The notes below the pieces were generated by a model, which did no database searches, had not been told where the DNA came from, and saw only the letters and a program-made list of their open reading frames with translations. A program made the translations under genes and the position numbers. This document shows, in pieces, positions 18,238-40,848 of a DNA stretch of 64,000 nt; positions within the stretch are counted from its first letter, which is position 1, and each line of letters starts with the position of its first letter. This DNA is from Arthrobacter sp. YN. Its GTDB lineage: Bacteria > Actinomycetota > Actinomycetes > Actinomycetales > Micrococcaceae. The stretch covers positions 1,984,001-2,048,000 of the forward strand of contig NZ_CP022436.1 in assembly GCF_002224285.1 (NCBI RefSeq). The letters are read 5' to 3'.

Positions 18238-18287
18238 TCGAGTCAGTTCTACGTCCCGTAGCAAAGCCACGCGGATGTGGATACAGC

Positions 18288-18360: not shown

Positions 18361-20097
18361 CTAGAGGCCAAGGTCAGCTTCGAAAGCCCCTTCCTCAAGG
18401 CGGGCCTTGAGGGTCTGCAGGAAGCGGCCGGCGTCTGCGCCGTCCACCAAACGGTGGTCGTACGTCAGGGAGAGGTACATCATGGAGCGGATGGCAATCG
18501 AGTCGTCGCCATTTTCGTCGGCAACCACCACGGCACGCTTGACGATCGCGCCGGTCCCGAGGATACCCACCTGCGGCTGGTTGATGATCGGGGTGTCGAA
18601 CAGTGCGCCGACAGATCCGATGTTGGTGATGCTGAACGTACCGCCGGACAACTCGTCCGGACCGATCTTGCCGTCGCGGGTGCGGCCCGCGACATCGGCG
18701 ATCTTGCCGGCGAGGCCCGCAAGGTTCAGGTTGCCGGCGTCGGAGATGACCGGAACCAGAAGGCCCTTGTCAGTGTCGACGGCGATCGCCAGATGCTCGG
18801 CGTTGTGGTAGGTGATTTCCTGCTTGGATTCGTCGTAGGCAGCGTTCAGCTTGGGGTGCTGCTTCAGGGCTTCAGCGACAGCTTTGGCGATGAACGGCAG
18901 GAAGGTGAGCTTGACGCCATTCTGGGCCAGGAACTGGTTCTTGGCCTTGAGCCGGAGCTTGGCGATCTTGGTCATGTCGACCTCATGCACCTGCGTCAGC
19001 TGGGTGGAGACCTCAAGGGACTCGCGCATGCGGCGGGCGATGACCTGGCGGATACGCGGTGCCTTCTCCGTGGTGCCGCGCAGCGACGATGCTACTACCG
19101 GAGCAGCAGCCTTGGCAGCGGGAGCTGCGGCTGCGGGCGCTGATGCTGCGGGGGCAGCGGCGGCCTGCTTGGCTTCGGCAGCGGCCAGGACATCCTGCTT
19201 GCGGATACGGCCACCGACGCCGGTACCGGAGACGGAAGCGATATCAACACCGTGCTGGTTGGCAAGCTTGCGGACCAGGGGAGTGACGTAACCGGATTCC
19301 GAAGAACCTTCAGCCGCGGGAGCAGCGGAAGCCGCAGCGGGTGCAGCAGGTGTCGGCGTAGCAGCGGCAGGTGCGGGTGCTGCAGCCGGTGCGGGTGCAG
19401 CAGCGGGAGCGGCGGCCGGTGCGGGTGCTGCGGCAGGTGCCGCCGGTGCGGGAGCGGCGGCCGGTGCGGCTGCGCCGGAACCGATGACGGCAAGGACGGA
19501 GCCAACCTCAGCGGTCTCGTCCTCGTTGACGCGGATCTCCTGCAGGGTGCCTGCAACCGGCGACGGAATTTCGGTGTCGACCTTGTCGGTGGAAACCTCC
19601 AGGAGGGGCTCGTCCACCTCCACAGTGTCGCCTATGGCCTTGAGCCAGCGGGTGACGGTACCTTCGGTAACGCTCTCGCCCAACGCGGGGAGGGTGACTT
19701 CGTGACCTTCGCCGCCGGAAGCGGCGGGGGCCTCGGAAGCGGGTGCTTCCTCTGCTGCAGGTGCAGCCGGAGCTTCCTGGGCCGGTGCTGCCTGCTCTGC
19801 AGGAGCAGCAGGTGCTTCCTCGGCCGGTGCAGCCTCGGCCGCAGGAGCAGCCGAGCCGGAACCGTCGCCGATGCGGACCAAGGGGGCGCCAACTTCTGCC
19901 GTCTCGTCTTCAGCGACGAGGATTTCTTCGATGACGCCTGAGATCGGAGAAGGGATTTCGGTGTCTACTTTGTCGGTTGAAACCTCGAGCAACGGCTCGT
20001 CGATCTCCACCCGGTCACCAACCTGCTTGAGCCAGCGGGTGACGGTTCCTTCGGTGACACTCTCACCGAGGGCGGGCAAGTTAACGGATTCAGACAT
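18361..20097 (-). CDS. sucB: 2-oxo acid dehydrogenase E2: dihydrolipoamide acyltransferase
   Basis: Core acyltransferase of the 2-oxoglutarate (and in actinobacteria often also pyruvate) dehydrogenase complex. The 578 aa comprise two lipoyl domains with lipoylated Lys43 and Lys171 (both in [14 protein letters not shown]), a very Ala/Pro-rich swinging linker after each, a peripheral subunit-binding domain ([14 protein letters not shown]), and the catalytic domain ending in [14 protein letters not shown] with the HxxxDG active site. It is downstream of lpd on the same strand, 111 bp apart with a strong hairpin between. LipA and LipB encoded nearby supply its cofactor. Acyl specificity cannot be read from sequence. 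Confidence 0.95.
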
Positions 20098-33081: not shown

Positions 33082-34068
33082 TCAGCCCAAGAGTCCCGGG
33101 ACGATCAACAGCGCGGTCGGCACCGCCAGCAGCAAGGCCGATACCACCAGGACAAGGATGCGCAAGCTCTTGGTGAGTGGCGGCTGGGGTGAGAGGAGGC
33201 GGCTGACGCGTGACGCCGTCGTGCGTGGCGAGTCCGCTCCCCCGGTGGCACTGACGGCATTGCTTTCCACCACGGCCCCACCGGCGTTGAGGGCCCCGGT
33301 TCCGAGGGCGGGTTGGGAGGTTCCGCTGGCGACGATCGCGATGGCCTTGATCAGGGTGCCTTTGCTTTCGGTCCGCAAAGCGACGTCATCGGCCAGCATC
33401 TCGATCAGGGAGTTCACCGCCGTCTGGGCCAGCCGCGTGGTGGGGAACCACGGCAGGGCTTGGCGCCAGGCGGCGAAGGCCCACAGCAGGAGGTCGTGGC
33501 GCTGGGACAGGTGTGCGTTCTCGTGGATGAGGACGGCCCTGAGCTCAGCCGGCTCCAGGGCTGCCATGAGGCCGTCCGACAACACCGTGACGGATCGGGC
33601 GCCGCCGGGGAGGCAGTACGCCACGGGGGAGTCGTGGTTGATGACTACGGTGCCGGGGCCGTCGTCGGACGGTGAGGCGAGCAAGGCCAGCAGCTCGCGA
33701 TGCCGGCGCCGCTGGCGCTCAATCTTGTAATAGGTCAGCAGCAGGGTGAAAACCAGGTGCGCGGTCAACAGTGCCGCCGCAGACAGTGCGAAGAGGTGCC
33801 AAAAGCCCAATGCTGTGGTGGGTTCGTTGTTGAAGACCATGCCGGCCAGGCTCTTGAGCCCGGCTATGAGGTTGTCTCCGATGGGCTCCAGTCCGTAGAC
33901 CAGCATGGCGCCGATCATGGAGAGCCCACCAGCGAGGGCGATCGCCTGCCACAGGACCATGGCCGTGAACGGCGAGCGCGCCGGCCACTGGGCGCGGGAC
34001 AGCAGGACGGGTACCGGCCACGCCAAAATCAATGCCAGGACCGCAAGCAGGTATGAGGTCCAGAACAT
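33082..34068 (-). CDS. M56 family membrane metalloprotease (BlaR1-like, no sensor domain)
   Basis: 328 aa with membrane helices at about 5-23, 37-58, 89-112 and 300-323, and a cytosolic zinc protease domain: IHENAHLSQRHD gives H182-E183-x2-H186, with third ligand candidate E223 (EMLADD). In BlaR1/MecR1 this domain inactivates the paired BlaI/MecI repressor. Here the protein ends after the last helix, so the extracellular penicillin-binding sensor of BlaR1 is missing and the inducing signal must differ. It starts five bases after the blaI stop, clearly one operon. Actinobacterial BlaI/M56 pairs of this short form are common, but their signals are mostly unknown. Confidence 0.9.
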   Translation of the reverse strand: MFWTSYLLAVLALILAWPVPVLLSRAQWPARSPFTAMVLWQAIALAGGLSMIGAMLVYGLEPIGDNLIAGLKSLAGMVFNNEPTTALGFWHLFALSAAALLTAHLVFTLLLTYYKIERQRRRHRELLALLASPSDDGPGTVVINHDSPVAYCLPGGARSVTVLSDGLMAALEPAELRAVLIHENAHLSQRHDLLLWAFAAWRQALPWFPTTRLAQTAVNSLIEMLADDVALRTESKGTLIKAIAIVASGTSQPALGTGALNAGGAVVESNAVSATGGADSPRTTASRVSRLLSPQPPLTKSLRILVLVVSALLLAVPTALLIVPGLLG

Positions 34069-34073
34069 AGTGG

Positions 34074-34460
34074 CTAATTGTAGCCGAGCAGTTTGCGCAG
34101 GGTAGCGGCTTCACTTTCGGTGACGGAACCAATGAAGCGGGCCAGAACGGCCTCGCGGTCCGGAGCGGAGCCCAGGACTTCATGCATCAGTTCGGCGGTG
34201 TGGTCGGCACGGCTGGAAACAGCTTGGTAGCGGTGCGGACGCGTACCGCGCTCACGCTCCACCAGCCCCTTCTTTTCCAGGCGTGACAGCACGGTAAGCA
34301 CCGTGGTCACGGCCAGATCCTTGCCTTGATGTCCCGCAGTGCCGTCTCCGGCCTCGGAATCCTGCGCCAGGAGATCGCGCAGGGTATTGGCAGTTGCAGC
34401 CTCCTGGCCTGCCCAGAGCAGATCCATGACTGCCCGTTCCAGTTCCCCAAGACTTGCCAT
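34074..34460 (-). CDS. blaI: BlaI/MecI/CopY family transcriptional repressor
   Basis: 128-aa winged-helix repressor: the N-terminal LGELERAVMDLLWAG leads into a DNA-binding module with AVTTVLTVLSRLEKKGLVERE (recognition helix and wing) and a C-terminal dimerisation helix. In the family, cleavage by the partner M56 protease relieves repression. Three matching dyads lie in the region upstream between this gene and cydA. A minus-strand TAGATT (34540-34535) would place the first dyad over its -35 position, predicting autoregulation. The gene sits in one operon with the M56 gene. Confidence 0.93.
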   Translation of the reverse strand: MASLGELERAVMDLLWAGQEAATANTLRDLLAQDSEAGDGTAGHQGKDLAVTTVLTVLSRLEKKGLVERERGTRPHRYQAVSSRADHTAELMHEVLGSAPDREAVLARFIGSVTESEAATLRKLLGYN

Positions 34461-34534
34461 CTATACGTCCCTACCTTCCGCTTCCCGGTGCAGGGTTACT
34501 GCTGCCGGGAGCGATGATCCAACATTCCACCATA

Positions 34535-34540
34535 AATCTA
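34535..34540 (-). promoter_or_regulatory. Candidate -10 box of the blaI-M56 operon
   Basis: Minus-strand TAGATT. With a 17-bp spacer the -35 would fall at 34563-34558, overlapping dyad 1. Confidence 0.35.
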
Positions 34541-34558
34541 CCGCTTTTCAGCTCTTCA

Positions 34559-34575
34559 TTCTACGTGAGGTAGAA
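34559..34575. promoter_or_regulatory. BlaI-type operator, dyad 1
   Basis: TTCTAC-GTGAG-GTAGAA, a perfect 6+6 inverted repeat with 5-nt centre, 99 bp upstream of the blaI ATG. It is one of three copies. Confidence 0.75.
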
Positions 34576-34657
34576 CTATCGGCGCGCCGCGGCCGCCGGG
34601 GAGCCCTTGCGCGTGGGTTACGCCACTTGAAGAATGGGTTTCGTCGCCCGCCATTTG

Positions 34658-34674
34658 TTCTACACTGTGTAGAA
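34658..34674. promoter_or_regulatory. BlaI-type operator, dyad 2 (cydA side)
   Basis: TTCTAC-ACTGT-GTAGAA, identical arms to dyad 1, 66 bp upstream of the cydA ATG. Confidence 0.75.
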
Positions 34675-34681
34675 GAGAAGT

Positions 34682-34698
34682 TTCTACGCAACGTAGAA
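34682..34698. promoter_or_regulatory. BlaI-type operator, dyad 3 (cydA side)
   Basis: TTCTAC-GCAAC-GTAGAA, 24 bp centre-to-centre from dyad 2 and 42 bp upstream of the cydA ATG. The tandem spacing favours cooperative binding. Confidence 0.75.
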
Positions 34699-34739
34699 GT
34701 AACGTCATCGTACTTCGGTCCGCCGCACAAAGGACAGCC

Positions 34740-36332
34740 ATGGACGCCTTGGAAATCGCACGCTGGCAATTCGGTATCACTACCGTGTACCACTTCATGA
34801 TGGTGCCCCTCACTATCGGTCTGGGACTGGTTGTGGCCATTATGCAGACCATCTGGTACCGCACGGGCAAGCCCGAATACCTGCGGATGACCAAGTTCTG
34901 GGGAAAGCTCTTCCTCATCAACTTCATCATGGGCGTGGCCACGGGCATCGTGCAGGAATTCCAGTTCGGTATGGCGTGGAGCGAGTACAGCCGGTTCGTG
35001 GGTGACGTGTTCGGCGCGCCGCTGGCACTCGAGGCCCTGCTGGCCTTCTTTGTTGAATCAACGTTCCTGGGGCTGTGGATCTTCGGGTGGAAGCAACTCA
35101 AGCGCGGCGTGCACCTGGCTTGCCTGTGGATCGCCGTGATTGGTTCCGTCTTCTCCGCCTACTTCATCATCGTGGCGAACTCCTGGATGCAGCACCCTGT
35201 AGGGGTGGAGATGGTGGATGGACGGCCCGTGATGACCGACGCCTGGGCCGTCTTCACCAACAACACCGCCTTGGTGGCTGTACCCCACACGCTGTTCGGT
35301 GCACTCGCAGTCGCCGGCGCATTCCTCCTGGGCATCGCCTGGTACCACTTGTGGCGTCGCCGGCATGACGGCATTGACGTGGTGGGCAAGGACGGCAAGC
35401 TGGTTCCCGGCGAAGCTGCGATCCCGGGCCGGGACACGTCCGACTACACCGTGTGGATGAAGAGCCTCCGGATCGGTGCCGTTGTTGCCATGATTTCCTT
35501 CGCCGGCACCGCCATCACGGGCGACCTGCAGGGCAAGCTGATGTTTGAACAACAGCCCATGAAAATGGCTGCCGCAGAAGCCGCCTGCCACGATGGCACG
35601 GGCTTCTCGGTCCTGAGTGTTGGCAACCTCGGCGCCACCAACTGCGATGACATTGTTGCCGTGATCGAAGTGCCCGGCATCCTCTCCTTCCTGGCCAAGG
35701 GGGACTTCACCACCGAAGTGAAGGGTGTCAACAGCCTGCTGGGCGAGTACAAGGAAAAGTACGGAACCCACCTCCCGGACAACCCGCTGTACGGCGACCG
35801 TGCCGGGCAGGAAATCCAGTACGTGCCCGTGATGGAAGTGACCTACTGGGGCTTCCGCATGATGATCGGCTTCGGCGGGATCGCAGCCTTTGCCGCACTG
35901 CTGGCTCTCTGGGTGACCCGCAAGGGCGTAGTACCGCAATCGAAGTGGCTCATGCGCCTCGCCGTCTTCGGCATCCTGGCACCCTTCGGCGCCAACGCCG
36001 CTGGCTGGATCTTCACTGAAATGGGCAGGCAACCGTTCGTGGTGGCGCCCAACCCGGACATGAACGGCATCGACCAAGTGTTTATGTTTACTGCTGCCGC
36101 CGTGTCACCGGGGGTCAGTGCCGGGGAGCTCCTGACCTCGCTGGTGGTCCTTACCGCCATCTACGCCGTCTTGCTGGTGGTCGAAGTGAAACTCCTGGTC
36201 AAGTACATCCGCGGCGGCGTGGCCTCCGCGATGCCGGAGCTGGCCCACCCGGCCAAGGACAGGGACGACGACGACAAGAACGACGCCGGCCAGGACAAGT
36301 CCGGCGACGACGTCCTGGCATTCGCCTACTAG
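34740..36332 (+). CDS. cydA: Cytochrome bd ubiquinol/menaquinol oxidase subunit I
   Basis: Heme-bearing subunit of the high-affinity terminal oxidase, oxidising menaquinol and reducing oxygen without proton pumping. 530 aa, about nine transmembrane helices. Heme ligand His18 is in TTVYHFMMVP, the conserved acidic helix is EALLAFFVESTFLGLW, and a second heme-ligand region is VPHTLFGA. The C-terminus is a charged tail (KDRDDDDKNDAGQDKSGDD). AAAGGA precedes the ATG. First gene of cydA-cydB-cydDC; two BlaI-type dyads lie directly upstream. Confidence 0.97.
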   Translation: MDALEIARWQFGITTVYHFMMVPLTIGLGLVVAIMQTIWYRTGKPEYLRMTKFWGKLFLINFIMGVATGIVQEFQFGMAWSEYSRFVGDVFGAPLALEALLAFFVESTFLGLWIFGWKQLKRGVHLACLWIAVIGSVFSAYFIIVANSWMQHPVGVEMVDGRPVMTDAWAVFTNNTALVAVPHTLFGALAVAGAFLLGIAWYHLWRRRHDGIDVVGKDGKLVPGEAAIPGRDTSDYTVWMKSLRIGAVVAMISFAGTAITGDLQGKLMFEQQPMKMAAAEAACHDGTGFSVLSVGNLGATNCDDIVAVIEVPGILSFLAKGDFTTEVKGVNSLLGEYKEKYGTHLPDNPLYGDRAGQEIQYVPVMEVTYWGFRMMIGFGGIAAFAALLALWVTRKGVVPQSKWLMRLAVFGILAPFGANAAGWIFTEMGRQPFVVAPNPDMNGIDQVFMFTAAAVSPGVSAGELLTSLVVLTAIYAVLLVVEVKLLVKYIRGGVASAMPELAHPAKDRDDDDKNDAGQDKSGDDVLAFAY

Positions 36333-36350
36333 AAACAGGGGAAACTGACA

Positions 36351-37430
36351 TTGGAACTGTTGCCAACCATCTGGTTTGTGGCCATCGCGGTGCTGTGGAC
36401 GGGTTACCTCTTCCTGGAGGGCTTTGACCTTGGCGTCGGCATGCTCATGAAGCTCTTTGCCCGCAACAACACGGACCGCCGTGTGCTGCTCAACACCATC
36501 GGCCCCGTGTGGGACGGCAACGAGGTATGGCTGCTCACTGCGGCCGGAGCCACTTTCGCGGCCTTCCCGCTCTGGTACGCCTCGCTGTTTTCAGCCCTCT
36601 ACCTCCCGCTCCTGGCAGTCCTGGCCGCGCTGATCTTCCGGGCTGTCGCCTTCGAATACCGCGGCAAAGTGGACTCGGAGCGCTGGCGGAACCGCTGGGA
36701 CTGGGCGATCGCCGTTGGATCCTTCGTCGCAGCCTTCGGCATCGGTGCCGCCCTGGCGCTGACCACCACCGGTCTTCCGTTGAACGCCAACGGAGACCGC
36801 AGCGGCGGCCCCATGTCCTGGTTCAGTGGCTATGCGCTGCTGGGCGGTTTCGGTGTGGTGGCGTTCGCTCTGGTTCACGCCCTTGCCTTCCTGGCCCTGA
36901 AGACCGACGGCGATGTGCGGCACCGTGCACGCCGCTGGTTTGTGCGTTTGGTGCCGTTCGCGGTGTTGCCGATGTTCGGCTGGATGGTGTCCGTACAATT
37001 CCTCAGCGGTAAGCCGTGGACCTGGGCCCTGGTGGCGGCCGGAGTCGTGGCTGTCGTCCTGGCCTGGACGTTGGCCAGGGCAGGGGCAGAAGGACGGGCC
37101 TTCGGTGCCCTGGGCGGGTTCATTGTGTGCGCCACCGCTTCGATCTTCGGGGCAGCCTTCCCCGTGGTGATTCCTTCCACCCTTGATCCAGCGTTCAACC
37201 TGACCATTTCCAATGCCTCATCCTCGGACTACACACTGGGACTGATGAGCATTGTGGCCGCCGTAGGACTGCCCTTGGTGATCGCGTACCAGTCGTGGAC
37301 CTACTGGGTATTCCGCCGGCGCGTCAGCGCCGCGCATATCCCCGAAGCGCACGGTTTCCTTCCCGCGATTGCTGCCAAGGTCCTGATCCCCAAGGACAGC
37401 CAGCCAACCGCCGGCACCAAGGAAGGCTAA
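36351..37430 (+). CDS. cydB: Cytochrome bd oxidase subunit II
   Basis: 359-aa partner of CydA, membrane-embedded with about nine helices. The family start EGFDLGVGML and GPVWDGNEVWLL are clear. The start appears to be TTG at 36351, 18 bp after the cydA stop, with AGGGGA upstream. Translationally downstream of cydA in a single operon. Confidence 0.96.
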   Translation: MELLPTIWFVAIAVLWTGYLFLEGFDLGVGMLMKLFARNNTDRRVLLNTIGPVWDGNEVWLLTAAGATFAAFPLWYASLFSALYLPLLAVLAALIFRAVAFEYRGKVDSERWRNRWDWAIAVGSFVAAFGIGAALALTTTGLPLNANGDRSGGPMSWFSGYALLGGFGVVAFALVHALAFLALKTDGDVRHRARRWFVRLVPFAVLPMFGWMVSVQFLSGKPWTWALVAAGVVAVVLAWTLARAGAEGRAFGALGGFIVCATASIFGAAFPVVIPSTLDPAFNLTISNASSSDYTLGLMSIVAAVGLPLVIAYQSWTYWVFRRRVSAAHIPEAHGFLPAIAAKVLIPKDSQPTAGTKEG

Positions 37431-37437
37431 CGGCCCC

Positions 37438-40400
37438 ATGAAGCCCGTGTTCCCCTCCGGCCCGGCCACCCGATCCGCGCTGTACCTCATTGGGCTCCTG
37501 TCCGCCCTCAAGGCGCTGTCCCTGGTGCTCATGGCCCAGGCCGTGGCGGGGATGCTGGCAGGGCTCGCCTCCGGAACGGGGGACTGGAGCAGCGGACTTG
37601 TCTGGGGTGCTGTGGGAGCAGTCCTGAGGTCACTCACGGTCTGGGGCCAGGGCATCGCCTCCAGGCGGGCGGCACTTGGCGTCAAGGAGGAGTTGCGGGC
37701 GCAGCTGCTGCGGCGCTCACTGGCCGACCGTGCTTCATCCCCGGTAGAAGGAATGAACGACGGCGGCCTGGCGATCCTGGCGACGCGTGGCCTGGACGCG
37801 CTGGACGACTACTACACCCAGTACCTGCCCGCCTTGGTCAATTGCGCCACGGTACCGCTGTTGATCGGGGCCAGGATTCTCTTTGCCGACTGGGTCAGCG
37901 CGGTAGTGATCGTCCTGACGGTTCCGCTGGTGCCGTTGTTCATGGTCCTGATTGGCCGGCATACGGAGGACAACGTCAGGGACGCCCAGACAAGCCTCCG
38001 GAAACTCTCCGGCCACATCCTGGAACTGGCCAAGGGCCTTCCGGTGCTGGTGGGCCTGGGCCGCGCCACCGAACAACGCGCAGCCTTGGAAGACATTTCG
38101 GAGCAGTACCGGAGCCGGACCATGGGAACCCTCCGAACAGCCTTCCTGTCAGCGTTGGCGCTCGAACTCATTGCCACGATCTCCGTTGCCGTTGTAGCTG
38201 TGTTCATCGGCGTCAGGCTTGTGGGCGGCGACATGGCCCTGGAAGCCGGACTCCTGGCCCTTATCCTTGCCCCGGACTGCTACTTGCCGCTGCGGGAGCT
38301 GGGTACTGCCCACCACGCCAGCGACGACGGCAGGGCCGCCTTGGAAACCACCAATGCCGTGCTGGATGCCCCCGCGCACCAGGCCCTGCCTGACAAAGAA
38401 TCCTCCAACAGCATGCCGTCCGGCGTTGTGGTGGACGGGTTGTCGGTGACCTATCGCGGGAGGTCCACGGCCGCCGTCGGGCCCCTCAGCTTTACCGCCC
38501 CGCAAGGCAGCATTACAGCCCTCGACGGCGACAGCGGCGCCGGGAAGAGCACCGTCCTCGGTGTCCTTGCCGGACTGATCGGACCAGGGCCGGGAGCAGG
38601 CGTGACGGGAACCGTCACTGGAGCCGGGAAGGGTGCCGTGGCATGGGTGCCGCAACACCCCGCCATGGCAACAGGGACCGTCCAGGAAGAAGTGTCCCTG
38701 TATCTTGACGGATACAACGGAGATGCTGCCCAAGCCGTCACACGTGTTTTGTCGAAAGCAAGGGCTGCGCACCTGGCTGGGAAGAACCCGGCCGAACTGA
38801 GCCCCGGTGAACTGCGCCGTGTTGCGCTCGCCCGCGGACTGGCACGGGTGGAAGCAGGCGCCACCGTCCTGCTGCTCGACGAGCCCACCGCGCACTTGGA
38901 CCCCTACTCAGCCAGCGTGGTCCGCCACGCCATCGAGTCTCTGCGAGGCAACGTTACGGTCATCCTGGTGGCCCACGACGCCGCAACCCGTGCGCTCGCG
39001 GACCACGTGGTGCCCGTGGGAAACAAACGCTTCCATAATGCGCCCATGGTTCCGTCCGTGACCACAGGTGACACCCGGGAGACTGCCGCCGGCGAACAGC
39101 GCCAAACATCCATGACCGATGGTTTTACCCAGCGCACCCCACAGGCCGGCAATCTGAAGCGCCTGGTGCGGATCCTCCAACCCGTGCAGTGGAAGTTCGT
39201 CGCCGCCGGCACCGTGGCGGTCCTGGCTGCCCTGTTCGCGGTGGCATTGTCCGGTTTGTCCGGGTGGCTGATCATCAGGGCCAGCGAACAACCGCCCATC
39301 CTCTACTTGCTGGGCGCGATTGTCGGCGTCAGATTCTTCGGAATCGGCAGGGCAGTCCTGCGCTACTGTGAGCGGCTCCTGACCCACGACGCCGTATTCG
39401 CCGCCATGACCCGCCTCCGCGGAGCACTGTGGGGGACACTGAGCCGCAGGGCACTGTCATTGAGGCGCCTTCTCCAGGGCGGCAACGTGCTTGGCGCAAT
39501 CGTGGACGACGTCGATACCCTCCGGGACCTCCTGCCACGGGTTGCGCTGCCACCCGTCACCGCAGTGGGGGTGGGAGCTGCGGCGATCGCAGCCACAGCC
39601 ATCGTCCTGCCCGCCGCCCTGCCCGCTGTGGTGCTGGCTTCCGTGGTGGGACTTGCAATCGCCCCGCTCATTGCCGTCCTGGCCGACCGGAACGCTGCCA
39701 AGGGCGAACAGCACATGCGCTCCGTGGTACTTCACGGCGTGGCCTCAGCCCTGGACGCCCGGGCAGAACTGACGGCCAACGCAGTAGCCGGGCCGATCCT
39801 CAAGGATCTGCGAACCAAAGACCGCGCCGCCACCGTCTCTGCCCAGCGCTCGGCATGGGCTGAAGGCCTCGGCCAAGCCGTGATCGTCCTGGCATGCTCG
39901 CTGGCAGCCTTGTGGGCAGGTGTCCTCAGCGCTCCTTCGGTTGTCTCCGGTACGGTCCCACCCGAACTTGTGGCTGTCATCGTCCTGATGCAGCTGGCCT
40001 TGGTGGATGCCTTCAGCGGCATCGTTTCCGCGGTGCGCCAGGCTCCGGCGCTCGCGGCCGTGCTGGGCCGGGTTGCTGCGTCCGGGGCTTTGGACGTTTC
40101 TGGCGCCGATCTTTCCGAGGCAACCCGAACAGAGCTCGACGGCGGCCCGCGGCCACTCCCGGACCGCGACGGCGCAGCGGGGCTTGAATTGAAGGGTGCG
40201 GCGGCTGCCTGGCCCGGGGGTCCCGATGCCTTCGCCGGGATCACCGCTGAAGCCGGACCCGGCCGCTGGCTCGCGGTGACAGGGCCCTCGGGCGCGGGAA
40301 AGACCACGCTGCTGTCCGTGCTGCTGGGCTTCCTGCCGCTCACCCGGGGAACAGCGAAGCTGACGGGTACTGCCGCCTGGTGCCCCCAGGAAGCGCACCT

Positions 40401-40848
40401 GTTCGACTCCACCATCCGTGGGAACCTCCTGCTCAGCCGTCCAGCCGCGGCGAAGCCAAGCGAGGCCGAGATGTACAAGGCACTGGCGGACGTCGGACTT
40501 GATGTGGTGGTGGACGCCTTGCCGGACGGACTCGATGCCAGGATCGGGCCCGGCGGCTCGTTCCTCAGCGGAGGCGAACGGCAGCGGCTGGCGATGGCCA
40601 GGACCCTTCTGACCGGAGCGTCGGTACTTCTGCTCGACGAGCCCACTGCCCATCTGGACGCCGGTTCTGCACGGGAAATGATGGCCATTCTTCGCGAAGG
40701 CCTCAAGGACGTCACTGTTGTTCTGGTGACCCACAATCCCGACGACATTGATCCGGGGGATGCCCGGCTCGAACTGTCCGCAGCCCAGCCTGCGACGAAA
40801 CAAAGCATGGGCGCGCCGGAACTGGTGGGAAAGCGTACCCCTCAGTAA
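37438..40848 (+). CDS. cydDC: Fused CydD-CydC thiol-reductant ABC exporter
   Basis: Single 1136-aa chain combining CydD and CydC, which export glutathione/cysteine-type thiols and are needed for cytochrome bd assembly. First half: six TM helices, Walker A GDSGAGKST, signature LSPGELRRVAL and Walker B VLLLDEPTAHLD. Second half (from about residue 560): six TM helices, Walker A GPSGAGKTT, signature LSGGERQRLAM and Walker B VLLLDEPTAHLD. The linker near 545-565 is short. It starts seven bases after cydB, completing the operon. Fusion is seen in several actinobacteria and fixes a 1:1 stoichiometry. Confidence 0.95.
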   Translation: MKPVFPSGPATRSALYLIGLLSALKALSLVLMAQAVAGMLAGLASGTGDWSSGLVWGAVGAVLRSLTVWGQGIASRRAALGVKEELRAQLLRRSLADRASSPVEGMNDGGLAILATRGLDALDDYYTQYLPALVNCATVPLLIGARILFADWVSAVVIVLTVPLVPLFMVLIGRHTEDNVRDAQTSLRKLSGHILELAKGLPVLVGLGRATEQRAALEDISEQYRSRTMGTLRTAFLSALALELIATISVAVVAVFIGVRLVGGDMALEAGLLALILAPDCYLPLRELGTAHHASDDGRAALETTNAVLDAPAHQALPDKESSNSMPSGVVVDGLSVTYRGRSTAAVGPLSFTAPQGSITALDGDSGAGKSTVLGVLAGLIGPGPGAGVTGTVTGAGKGAVAWVPQHPAMATGTVQEEVSLYLDGYNGDAAQAVTRVLSKARAAHLAGKNPAELSPGELRRVALARGLARVEAGATVLLLDEPTAHLDPYSASVVRHAIESLRGNVTVILVAHDAATRALADHVVPVGNKRFHNAPMVPSVTTGDTRETAAGEQRQTSMTDGFTQRTPQAGNLKRLVRILQPVQWKFVAAGTVAVLAALFAVALSGLSGWLIIRASEQPPILYLLGAIVGVRFFGIGRAVLRYCERLLTHDAVFAAMTRLRGALWGTLSRRALSLRRLLQGGNVLGAIVDDVDTLRDLLPRVALPPVTAVGVGAAAIAATAIVLPAALPAVVLASVVGLAIAPLIAVLADRNAAKGEQHMRSVVLHGVASALDARAELTANAVAGPILKDLRTKDRAATVSAQRSAWAEGLGQAVIVLACSLAALWAGVLSAPSVVSGTVPPELVAVIVLMQLALVDAFSGIVSAVRQAPALAAVLGRVAASGALDVSGADLSEATRTELDGGPRPLPDRDGAAGLELKGAAAAWPGGPDAFAGITAEAGPGRWLAVTGPSGAGKTTLLSVLLGFLPLTRGTAKLTGTAAWCPQEAHLFDSTIRGNLLLSRPAAAKPSEAEMYKALADVGLDVVVDALPDGLDARIGPGGSFLSGGERQRLAMARTLLTGASVLLLDEPTAHLDAGSAREMMAILREGLKDVTVVLVTHNPDDIDPGDARLELSAAQPATKQSMGAPELVGKRTPQ

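Follow-up and report, generated by a model that had tools for sequence, protein, structure and literature searches.

The blaI–cydA locus and its operator dyads

We analyzed a stretch of 64,000 nucleotides (hereafter the window) from Arthrobacter sp. YN (contig NZ_CP022436.1, positions 1,984,001 to 2,048,000); the source genome is one contig of 5,063,552 bases. Our subject is a gene pair coding for a BlaI-type repressor and an M56-type membrane protease, which faces a cytochrome bd operon, together with the inverted repeats (dyads) TTCTAC-N5-GTAGAA that lie between the two. The features of the locus are as follows, the conservation of the dyads being that in 75 relatives and the window.

33082–34068, minus strand: M56 (BlaR1-like) membrane metalloprotease, 328 amino acids (aa), without a C-terminal sensor domain
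34074–34460, minus strand: blaI, winged-helix repressor, 128 aa (PF03965, E 1.7e-20)
34559–34575: operator dyad 1, on the blaI side, exact, TTCTAC-GTGAG-GTAGAA (arms 85–86% conserved, centre 55%)
34658–34674: operator dyad 2, on the cydA side, exact, TTCTAC-ACTGT-GTAGAA (arms 98–99%, centre 77%)
34682–34698: operator dyad 3, 41 bases before cydA, exact, TTCTAC-GCAAC-GTAGAA (arms 99.6–100%, centre 56%)
34740–36332, plus strand: cydA, cytochrome bd subunit I (PF01654, E 2.1e-151)
36351–37430, plus strand: cydB, cytochrome bd subunit II (PF02322, E 8.1e-102; TIGR00203)
37438–40848, plus strand: cydDC, CydD and CydC exporter proteins fused, 1136 aa (TIGR02857, residues 12–525; TIGR02868, residues 574–1101)

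Only 5 bases separate blaI from the M56 gene, and both form one unit on the minus strand. This unit faces cydA-cydB-cydDC (34740–40848, plus strand) across a divergent gap of 279 bp (34461–34739), the region that the initial annotation had singled out. The assignments of blaI, cydA and cydB made there were confirmed by Pfam and TIGRFAM profile matches. CydD and CydC, also placed in the operon, are both present; they turned out to be fused in a single open reading frame (ORF). Among the nearest named loci (the best 80 of 571), a 100% identical BlaI protein is found in Paenarthrobacter nitroguajacolicus, P. nicotinovorans and Arthrobacter strains.

All three exact copies of the dyad reported for this gap are indeed there, dyad 3 starting 24 bases past the start of dyad 2. 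With up to two mismatches allowed, the pattern has seven matches in the window, compared with 0.45 expected (100 shuffles, largest count 2). In the whole genome (5.06 Mb) the exact dyad occurs seven times and the reversed control pattern once. The dyads in the gap are not a product of chance. An alignment of the gaps of 75 relatives with that of the window (76 rows), built without regard to the dyad pattern, revealed that the 36 arm positions are on average 94.5% conserved, the 15 centre positions 62.4% and the remaining 223 positions 40.4%, in agreement with the earlier suggestion that the arms are under selection. The same alignment contains a second conserved block, AAATCTACCGC (34534–34545), between dyad 1 and blaI, possibly the −10 region of blaI.

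We also scanned the best 80 of 571 confirmed loci in named genomes (Paenarthrobacter, Arthrobacter, Pseudarthrobacter, Sinomonas, Specibacter, Acaricomes and Renibacterium among others). The M56 gene adjoins blaI in all 80 loci, and 75 of them have a cydA in divergent orientation to blaI (one gap measures 3.8 kb). Loss of the dyads where blaI and cyd adjoin would have spoken against the proposal of the initial annotation; instead, all 75 loci keep exact dyads, three in 60 loci and two in 15. The first two dyads counted from cydA are mostly spaced by 23–26 bases. In the five loci without a divergent cydA, a dyad is located 77–136 bases before blaI.

Co-occurrence of BlaI with the dyad and the predicted regulon

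The 5.06-Mb genome has only one PF03965 match, which is blaI. To relate the repressor to the dyad, we compared exact-dyad counts with BlaI matches (E up to 0.001) in 295 genomes of the family. Both are present in 248 genomes and neither in 41; BlaI alone occurs in one genome and the dyad alone in five (of the 46 genomes lacking BlaI, 26 were scored as such by elimination). Because of relatedness, these are not 295 independent events. The 41 genomes with neither belong to genera g17 (19), g20 (14) and g28 (8). Within g20, all nine genomes with BlaI have one or two dyads, and all 14 without BlaI have none. In nine inspected genomes of g20, g28 and g25, the dyads are located in the blaI–cydA gap or before cydA (g25, with a weak BlaI match); three of five dyads of g17 were inspected, and none is near the reference genes. 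Moreover, where blaI is unlinked to cyd, dyads are present at both, as in genomes G273 (loci L096 and L099), G182 (L125, with L118 and L123) and G588. By dyad conservation, by the co-occurrence of BlaI with the dyad and by the dyads at both genes when these are unlinked, sequence comparison strongly supports the view that this BlaI regulates both its own gene and cydABDC, in line with the original proposal that BlaI represses the cyd operon and itself.

The predicted regulon, however, appears to be wider than these two targets and to include haem synthesis, cytochrome c maturation, a flavohaemoglobin and, in some genera, the bc1-aa3 branch. The seven exact dyads of the source genome form five clusters: at blaI/cyd (three dyads), at hmp, at hemQ-hemH-hemC, at a cytochrome c maturation operon (histidine phosphatase-TlpA-CcdA-ResB) and at the gene for a small membrane protein. 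The hmp dyad sits between an Rrf2/NsrR-type gene and the flavohaemoglobin gene hmp. The names hmp, NsrR and hemQ were assigned from the Globin/FAD/NAD, Rrf2 and chlorite dismutase families, respectively. Each of 24 other genomes of the genus has 6–9 exact dyads (0–3 for the control), whereas the 14 genomes taken from the order's other families have none. Eight further genus genomes, one of which (G023) was fetched partly, with two of five clusters, contributed 40 dyad regions: blaI/cyd (7), hmp (7), hemQ (8), the cytochrome c operon (7), the small membrane protein (7) and a 144-aa protein (4). All 40 fall into six classes, and 36 represent the same five target sets as in the source genome; genome G008 has no dyad at hmp.

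The small membrane protein (L008:3514–3858, minus strand; dyad at L008:3900) is a membrane-like protein of 114 aa with no Pfam family. Its dyad recurs in seven of the eight other genus genomes (the eighth was fetched partly) and in four of the 15 genera considered below. It has 514 homologues, the best 120 of which are mostly hypothetical proteins of Arthrobacter and kin, and is possibly an unrecognised respiratory accessory protein. The 144-aa protein behind a dyad (L041:2039–2473, minus strand; also L051, L061, L065, L160, L177 and L183) is of the Pyridox_ox_2 type, as judged from the one copy scanned.

The genome also contains ten one-mismatch dyads, of which we examined nine. Three of these are inside long ORFs, four have no clear target and two are at recurring targets: qcrC, directly behind the gene for cytochrome oxidase subunit III, and an ABC ATPase gene, which has exact dyads in other genera. 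The one-mismatch dyads may add qcrC and the ABC ATPase to the regulon. The tenth is the window's own, TTCTACGTCCCGTAGCA (18247–18263), just past the end of a sucB-like gene (18361–20097, minus strand) and with no clear target.

A census of the family was based on one genome from each of 15 genera, with targets assigned by homology and Pfam. It yielded 72 exact dyads in 55 clusters, 43 of which lie before assigned target genes: blaI with cyd (14), blaI alone (1), hemQ (6), hemA/hemE (1), hmp (7), the small membrane protein (4), Pyridox_ox_2-type (3), cytochrome c maturation (3), CopC (3) and ABC ATPase (1). Three additional genomes (G182, G046 and G273) were chosen for their many dyads. In G182, each of the nine clusters belongs to one of the following targets: blaI, cyd (two clusters), hemQ, TlpA-CcdA (two clusters), CtaG/CopD, the small membrane protein and qcrC. 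Additional targets in G046 are hemA/hemE and cytochrome oxidase subunit II. G273 (23 dyads in 22 clusters) has ten clusters near respiratory or haem-type targets, among them UbiA, SURF1 and a membrane subunit of succinate dehydrogenase, with less certainty about some of the distances. A script assigned 134 of 183 dyad sites to the start of a homologue within 260 bases; the distance from dyad to start is 51–82 bases for hemQ (17 sites), 48–73 for histidine phosphatase (8), 59–99 for hmp (14) and 20–184 for cydA (71).

Two of these genomes show further peculiarities. In G182 (L118, L123 and L125), a dyad pair accompanies each of two cyd operons, and the blaI–M56 unit, which is not linked to them, has a dyad of its own. 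Genus g26 (including G273; L089–L109) has 3–23 exact dyads per genome compared with 5–9 in the source genus, and the enlarged set of G273 includes universal stress proteins, an aldolase and a P-type ATPase.

At the level of the class, 241 of 394 genomes have a BlaI match (E up to 1e-10). We inspected 46 genomes outside the family, combining the best-scoring loci with picks from different families; this is a non-random set that does not span all families with BlaI (f34 and f44, for instance, lie outside it). An M56 match is near BlaI in all 46 loci. CydA is present in the fetched stretch in 33 loci (divergent in 32), and a CTAC-N5-GTAG dyad lies between the two in 27 of the 33. Two of the 13 loci without CydA have cytochrome c maturation or CtaG genes. 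Some families use TACTAC-N5-GTAGTA instead, with 0–4 copies per genome in ten chosen genomes. In G444 and G588, a dyad of this form is at cydA though the best BlaI is elsewhere, and in G588 it is also before that blaI. In G694, it is at blaI/cyd and between histidine phosphatase and TlpA-CcdA, the operon being as in the source genome. In family f33 (L300–L310), BlaI lies 0.6–0.9 kb from a CydA that is only ~30% identical to the window CydA; the exact TTCTAC-N5-GTAGAA dyad is close to this cydA in 10 of 11 loci, a divergent bd-type oxidase with the same operator.

A number of observations weigh against a respiratory regulon read from this dyad. In the whole genome, the control pattern outnumbers the dyad (220 versus 93) if up to two mismatches are allowed. 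Near-matches are not in excess, and therefore our argument rests on the exact dyads; for the same reason the one-mismatch targets are weak. In the census, 12 of the 55 clusters are off assigned promoters: 11 are at other or unassigned genes, including VTT, Usp, a succinyl-CoA ligase-like gene and several genes without a family, and one (L146) is inside hemY, ~0.37 kb before hemQ, and was not counted as a hemQ site. Similarly, 12 of the 22 clusters of G273 are near other or unknown genes, for example those for a class II tRNA synthetase, an aldolase and a P-type ATPase. In 11 of the 46 class-wide BlaI loci, the stretch that was fetched contains no cyd and no cytochrome genes. In four f19/g57 genomes with the TACTAC form, the dyad is at other genes and not at cyd, which counts against the cyd link read from the TACTAC dyad in that genus. 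A strict sigma-70 scan of 34400–34800 detected no promoter-like site, and the candidate −35 element placed by the initial annotation under the blaI-side dyad was not confirmed. Finally, repression of haem synthesis looks costly, and control there may therefore be partial.

We also considered whether operator and repressor co-vary. All eight rows with TACTAC-type arms have Met at BlaI residue 55, and all 44 rows with TTCTAC-type arms have Leu or His there; in several rows the sites are imperfect and the arm type was settled by majority. Where no dyad could be scored, the row was left out (L145 and L297 in one comparison; L297, L275 and L274 in the tree comparison, which does not contain L145). 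The co-variation holds in 52 of 52 rows, but the tree shows a single change only, and for this reason we do not take it as independent support.

The BlaI–M56 pair: proposed mechanism and alternatives

BlaI matches PF03965 over residues 4–125 of 128 with 73.9 bits (cut-off 22.6) and is thus a member of this family. The closest solved structure is 2g9w (E 1.1e-27), BlaI of Mycobacterium tuberculosis (Rv1846c). Phe109 of BlaI is invariant in 20 sequences and aligns with Phe102 of MecI, a repressor that is cleaved at N101-F102.

The initial annotation had called the partner of BlaI an M56 protease. This stands insofar as the protein narrowly passes the PF05569 cut-off (31.4 bits, cut-off 31) and its predicted fold, membrane helices with a metalloprotease, matches BlaR1 best; however, the score is marginal, and M48 scores slightly better (37.5 bits). 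The catalytic residues H182, E183, H186, E223 and D227, which make up HEXXH and the downstream Glu/Asp, are kept in 69 of 69 proteins. The last helix (300–327) takes the protein to its end at residue 328, and only residues 3–292 of BlaR1 aligned with it. A Pfam scan revealed no transpeptidase domain in it, and it does not have a C-terminal penicillin-binding sensor.

Two ideas about the signal were rejected. The first was haem sensing through His91 and His104 of the M56 protein, which are 13 residues apart on one helix resembling a haem-b helix and are kept in the family (His104 invariant, His91 nearly so). We dropped it because only 33% and 20% of 49 class-wide M56 proteins keep His91 and His104, respectively. 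The second was copper sensing by a CopY-like BlaI. The window BlaI shares its superfamily with the CopY/TcrY copper repressors, as its TIGR02698 match indicates, but the score is far under the cut-off (26.9 versus 121.95 bits). Since the protein has no cysteine, it lacks the cysteine metal site of the CopY type.

Taken together, the dyads with their conservation and shared target set, the co-occurrence and linkage of BlaI, and the intact protease site suggest the following mechanism. BlaI dimers would bind TTCTAC-N5-GTAGAA at cydABDC and at their own promoter and repress both. They would also repress hmp, hemQ-hemH-hemC, the histidine phosphatase/TlpA-CcdA-ResB operon and the small membrane protein, and perhaps qcrC and the ABC transporter (one mismatch). 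In response to a membrane or respiratory-chain cue, the M56 protein, made from the same operon as blaI, would cut BlaI, with the conserved Phe109 as the probable cleavage site. Cleavage would result in a joint rise of cyd, haem supply, cytochrome assembly and nitric oxide (NO) defence. Candidate cues may be low oxygen, NO, an over-reduced quinone pool and failure of the bc1-aa3 branch; the targets would be fitted best by a quinone pool that is over-reduced, a main oxidase limited by oxygen or NO, or a bc1-aa3 branch that fails to assemble. We consider it probable that this explanation as a whole, with BlaI repressing the haem–cytochrome–bd regulon and itself and the M56 protein relieving the repression by proteolysis, is correct. 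The pair is likely a respiration switch in this soil bacterium and many of its relatives.

It is unlikely, if less so than the alternatives that follow, that BlaI represses these genes but the M56 protein is not its inducing protease, having some other membrane job, with BlaI released by a ligand or lost by M56-independent turnover. The marginal Pfam score, the missing sensor domain, and a signal and cleavage step that we infer leave some room for this. On the other hand, M56 is beside BlaI in every named locus and has a match near it in every class-wide one, its catalytic residues are all kept, and the invariant Phe of BlaI aligns with the MecI cleavage site.

A second alternative is that the pair serves to respond to beta-lactams or cell-wall stress and the respiration genes are secondary, as in M. 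tuberculosis with blaC as the best-known target. Both the BlaI and the M56/BlaR1 families take their names from beta-lactam systems, and M. tuberculosis BlaI is reported to control blaC in addition to binding the cyd and ATP synthase promoters (PMC5473688). We regard this alternative as improbable here: the M56 protein lacks a penicillin-binding sensor domain, neither a beta-lactamase nor a transpeptidase family is listed for the Pfam-scanned dyad neighbours (no search of the genome aimed at beta-lactamases was made), and the five exact-dyad clusters of the source genome are at respiratory, haem, NO-related or unknown genes.

That the dyads belong to another regulator acting at the same promoters, such as NsrR, Rex or a copper or oxygen sensor, is very improbable: the hmp dyad is flanked by an Rrf2/NsrR-type gene, and cyd in other actinobacteria is reported to be under Rex, SenX3/RegX3 or sigma-C (PMC4172946, PMC7719681, PMC7337898), but the dyads follow the presence of BlaI over 295 genomes, even within g20, and precede blaI also when it is unlinked to cyd.

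Relation to known systems and significance

In contrast to BlaI/BlaR1 and MecI/MecR1 of Staphylococcus aureus, the pair described here has no penicillin-binding sensor domain and is predicted to act on respiratory genes; the window BlaI is only remotely similar in sequence to MecI and to a penicillinase repressor (E 1e-5 and 1.6e-4). The nearest likeness appears to be with BlaI (Rv1846c) and BlaR (Rv1845c) of M. tuberculosis. The M. tuberculosis protein is the closest solved BlaI, its BlaR is reported to be sensorless as well, and a BlaI-type site at the cytochrome bd promoter, reported there, has its candidate counterpart here in two conserved dyads. They differ in that here the blaI–M56 unit is divergent from cydA, with three shared dyads. 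Furthermore, the regulon predicted here comprises haem synthesis, cytochrome c maturation, hmp and the bd oxidase, with no beta-lactamase among the scanned dyad neighbours. In addition, class relatives whose BlaI has Met55, as in 2g9w, carry TACTAC rather than TTCTAC arms.

Control of cytochrome bd by BlaI, which the initial annotation had put forward, is supported here, yet the link had already been stated for M. tuberculosis. PMC5473688, citing Sala 2009, says that M. tuberculosis BlaI binds the cytochrome bd and ATP synthase promoters and that mycobacterial BlaR lacks the beta-lactam sensor domain. The ATP synthase link of BlaI is added by PMC5874750, PMC12565901 and PMC7924339, and in the text of a 2020 review of mycobacterial oxidases BlaI does not occur (PMC7719681). 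Among the papers listed in our literature searches, which took in few subscription papers and no preprints, none described a haem/cytochrome regulon of BlaI in genera other than Mycobacterium, and the direct linkage and the conserved operator were absent from them too. The new part is the haem/cytochrome regulon, the blaI–M56–cyd linkage and the conserved operator; the kind of control is already known in one genus. A functional analogue is HrrSA together with sigma-C of Corynebacterium glutamicum, which is reported to couple hemA, hemE, hemQ and hemH with both terminal oxidase branches, including cydABDC (PMC7337898). However, these are a two-component system and an extracytoplasmic function (ECF) sigma factor, and the proteins are unrelated.

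It is tempting to go one step further, although we hold this idea with rather less than even confidence. BlaI–M56 may be an ancestral respiration controller of Actinomycetes, in which a sensorless protease reads the state of the respiratory chain or the membrane and cuts BlaI, thereby freeing an entire haem–cytochrome–oxidase regulon. The beta-lactam systems would then represent a later use, with a penicillin sensor added.

The choice that actinobacteria make between the bc1-aa3 branch and cytochrome bd is understood only in part, and for C. glutamicum little is reported to be known about it (PMC7337898). The cue for sensorless BlaR proteins is likewise a question. The description of the repressor, the operator and the predicted regulon in soil bacteria opens both questions to direct tests. 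If the proposed mechanism is true, haem supply, cytochrome assembly, NO defence and the bd oxidase would be tied to a single protease-relieved repressor, and the BlaI family would be a regulator of respiration as much as of antibiotic resistance.

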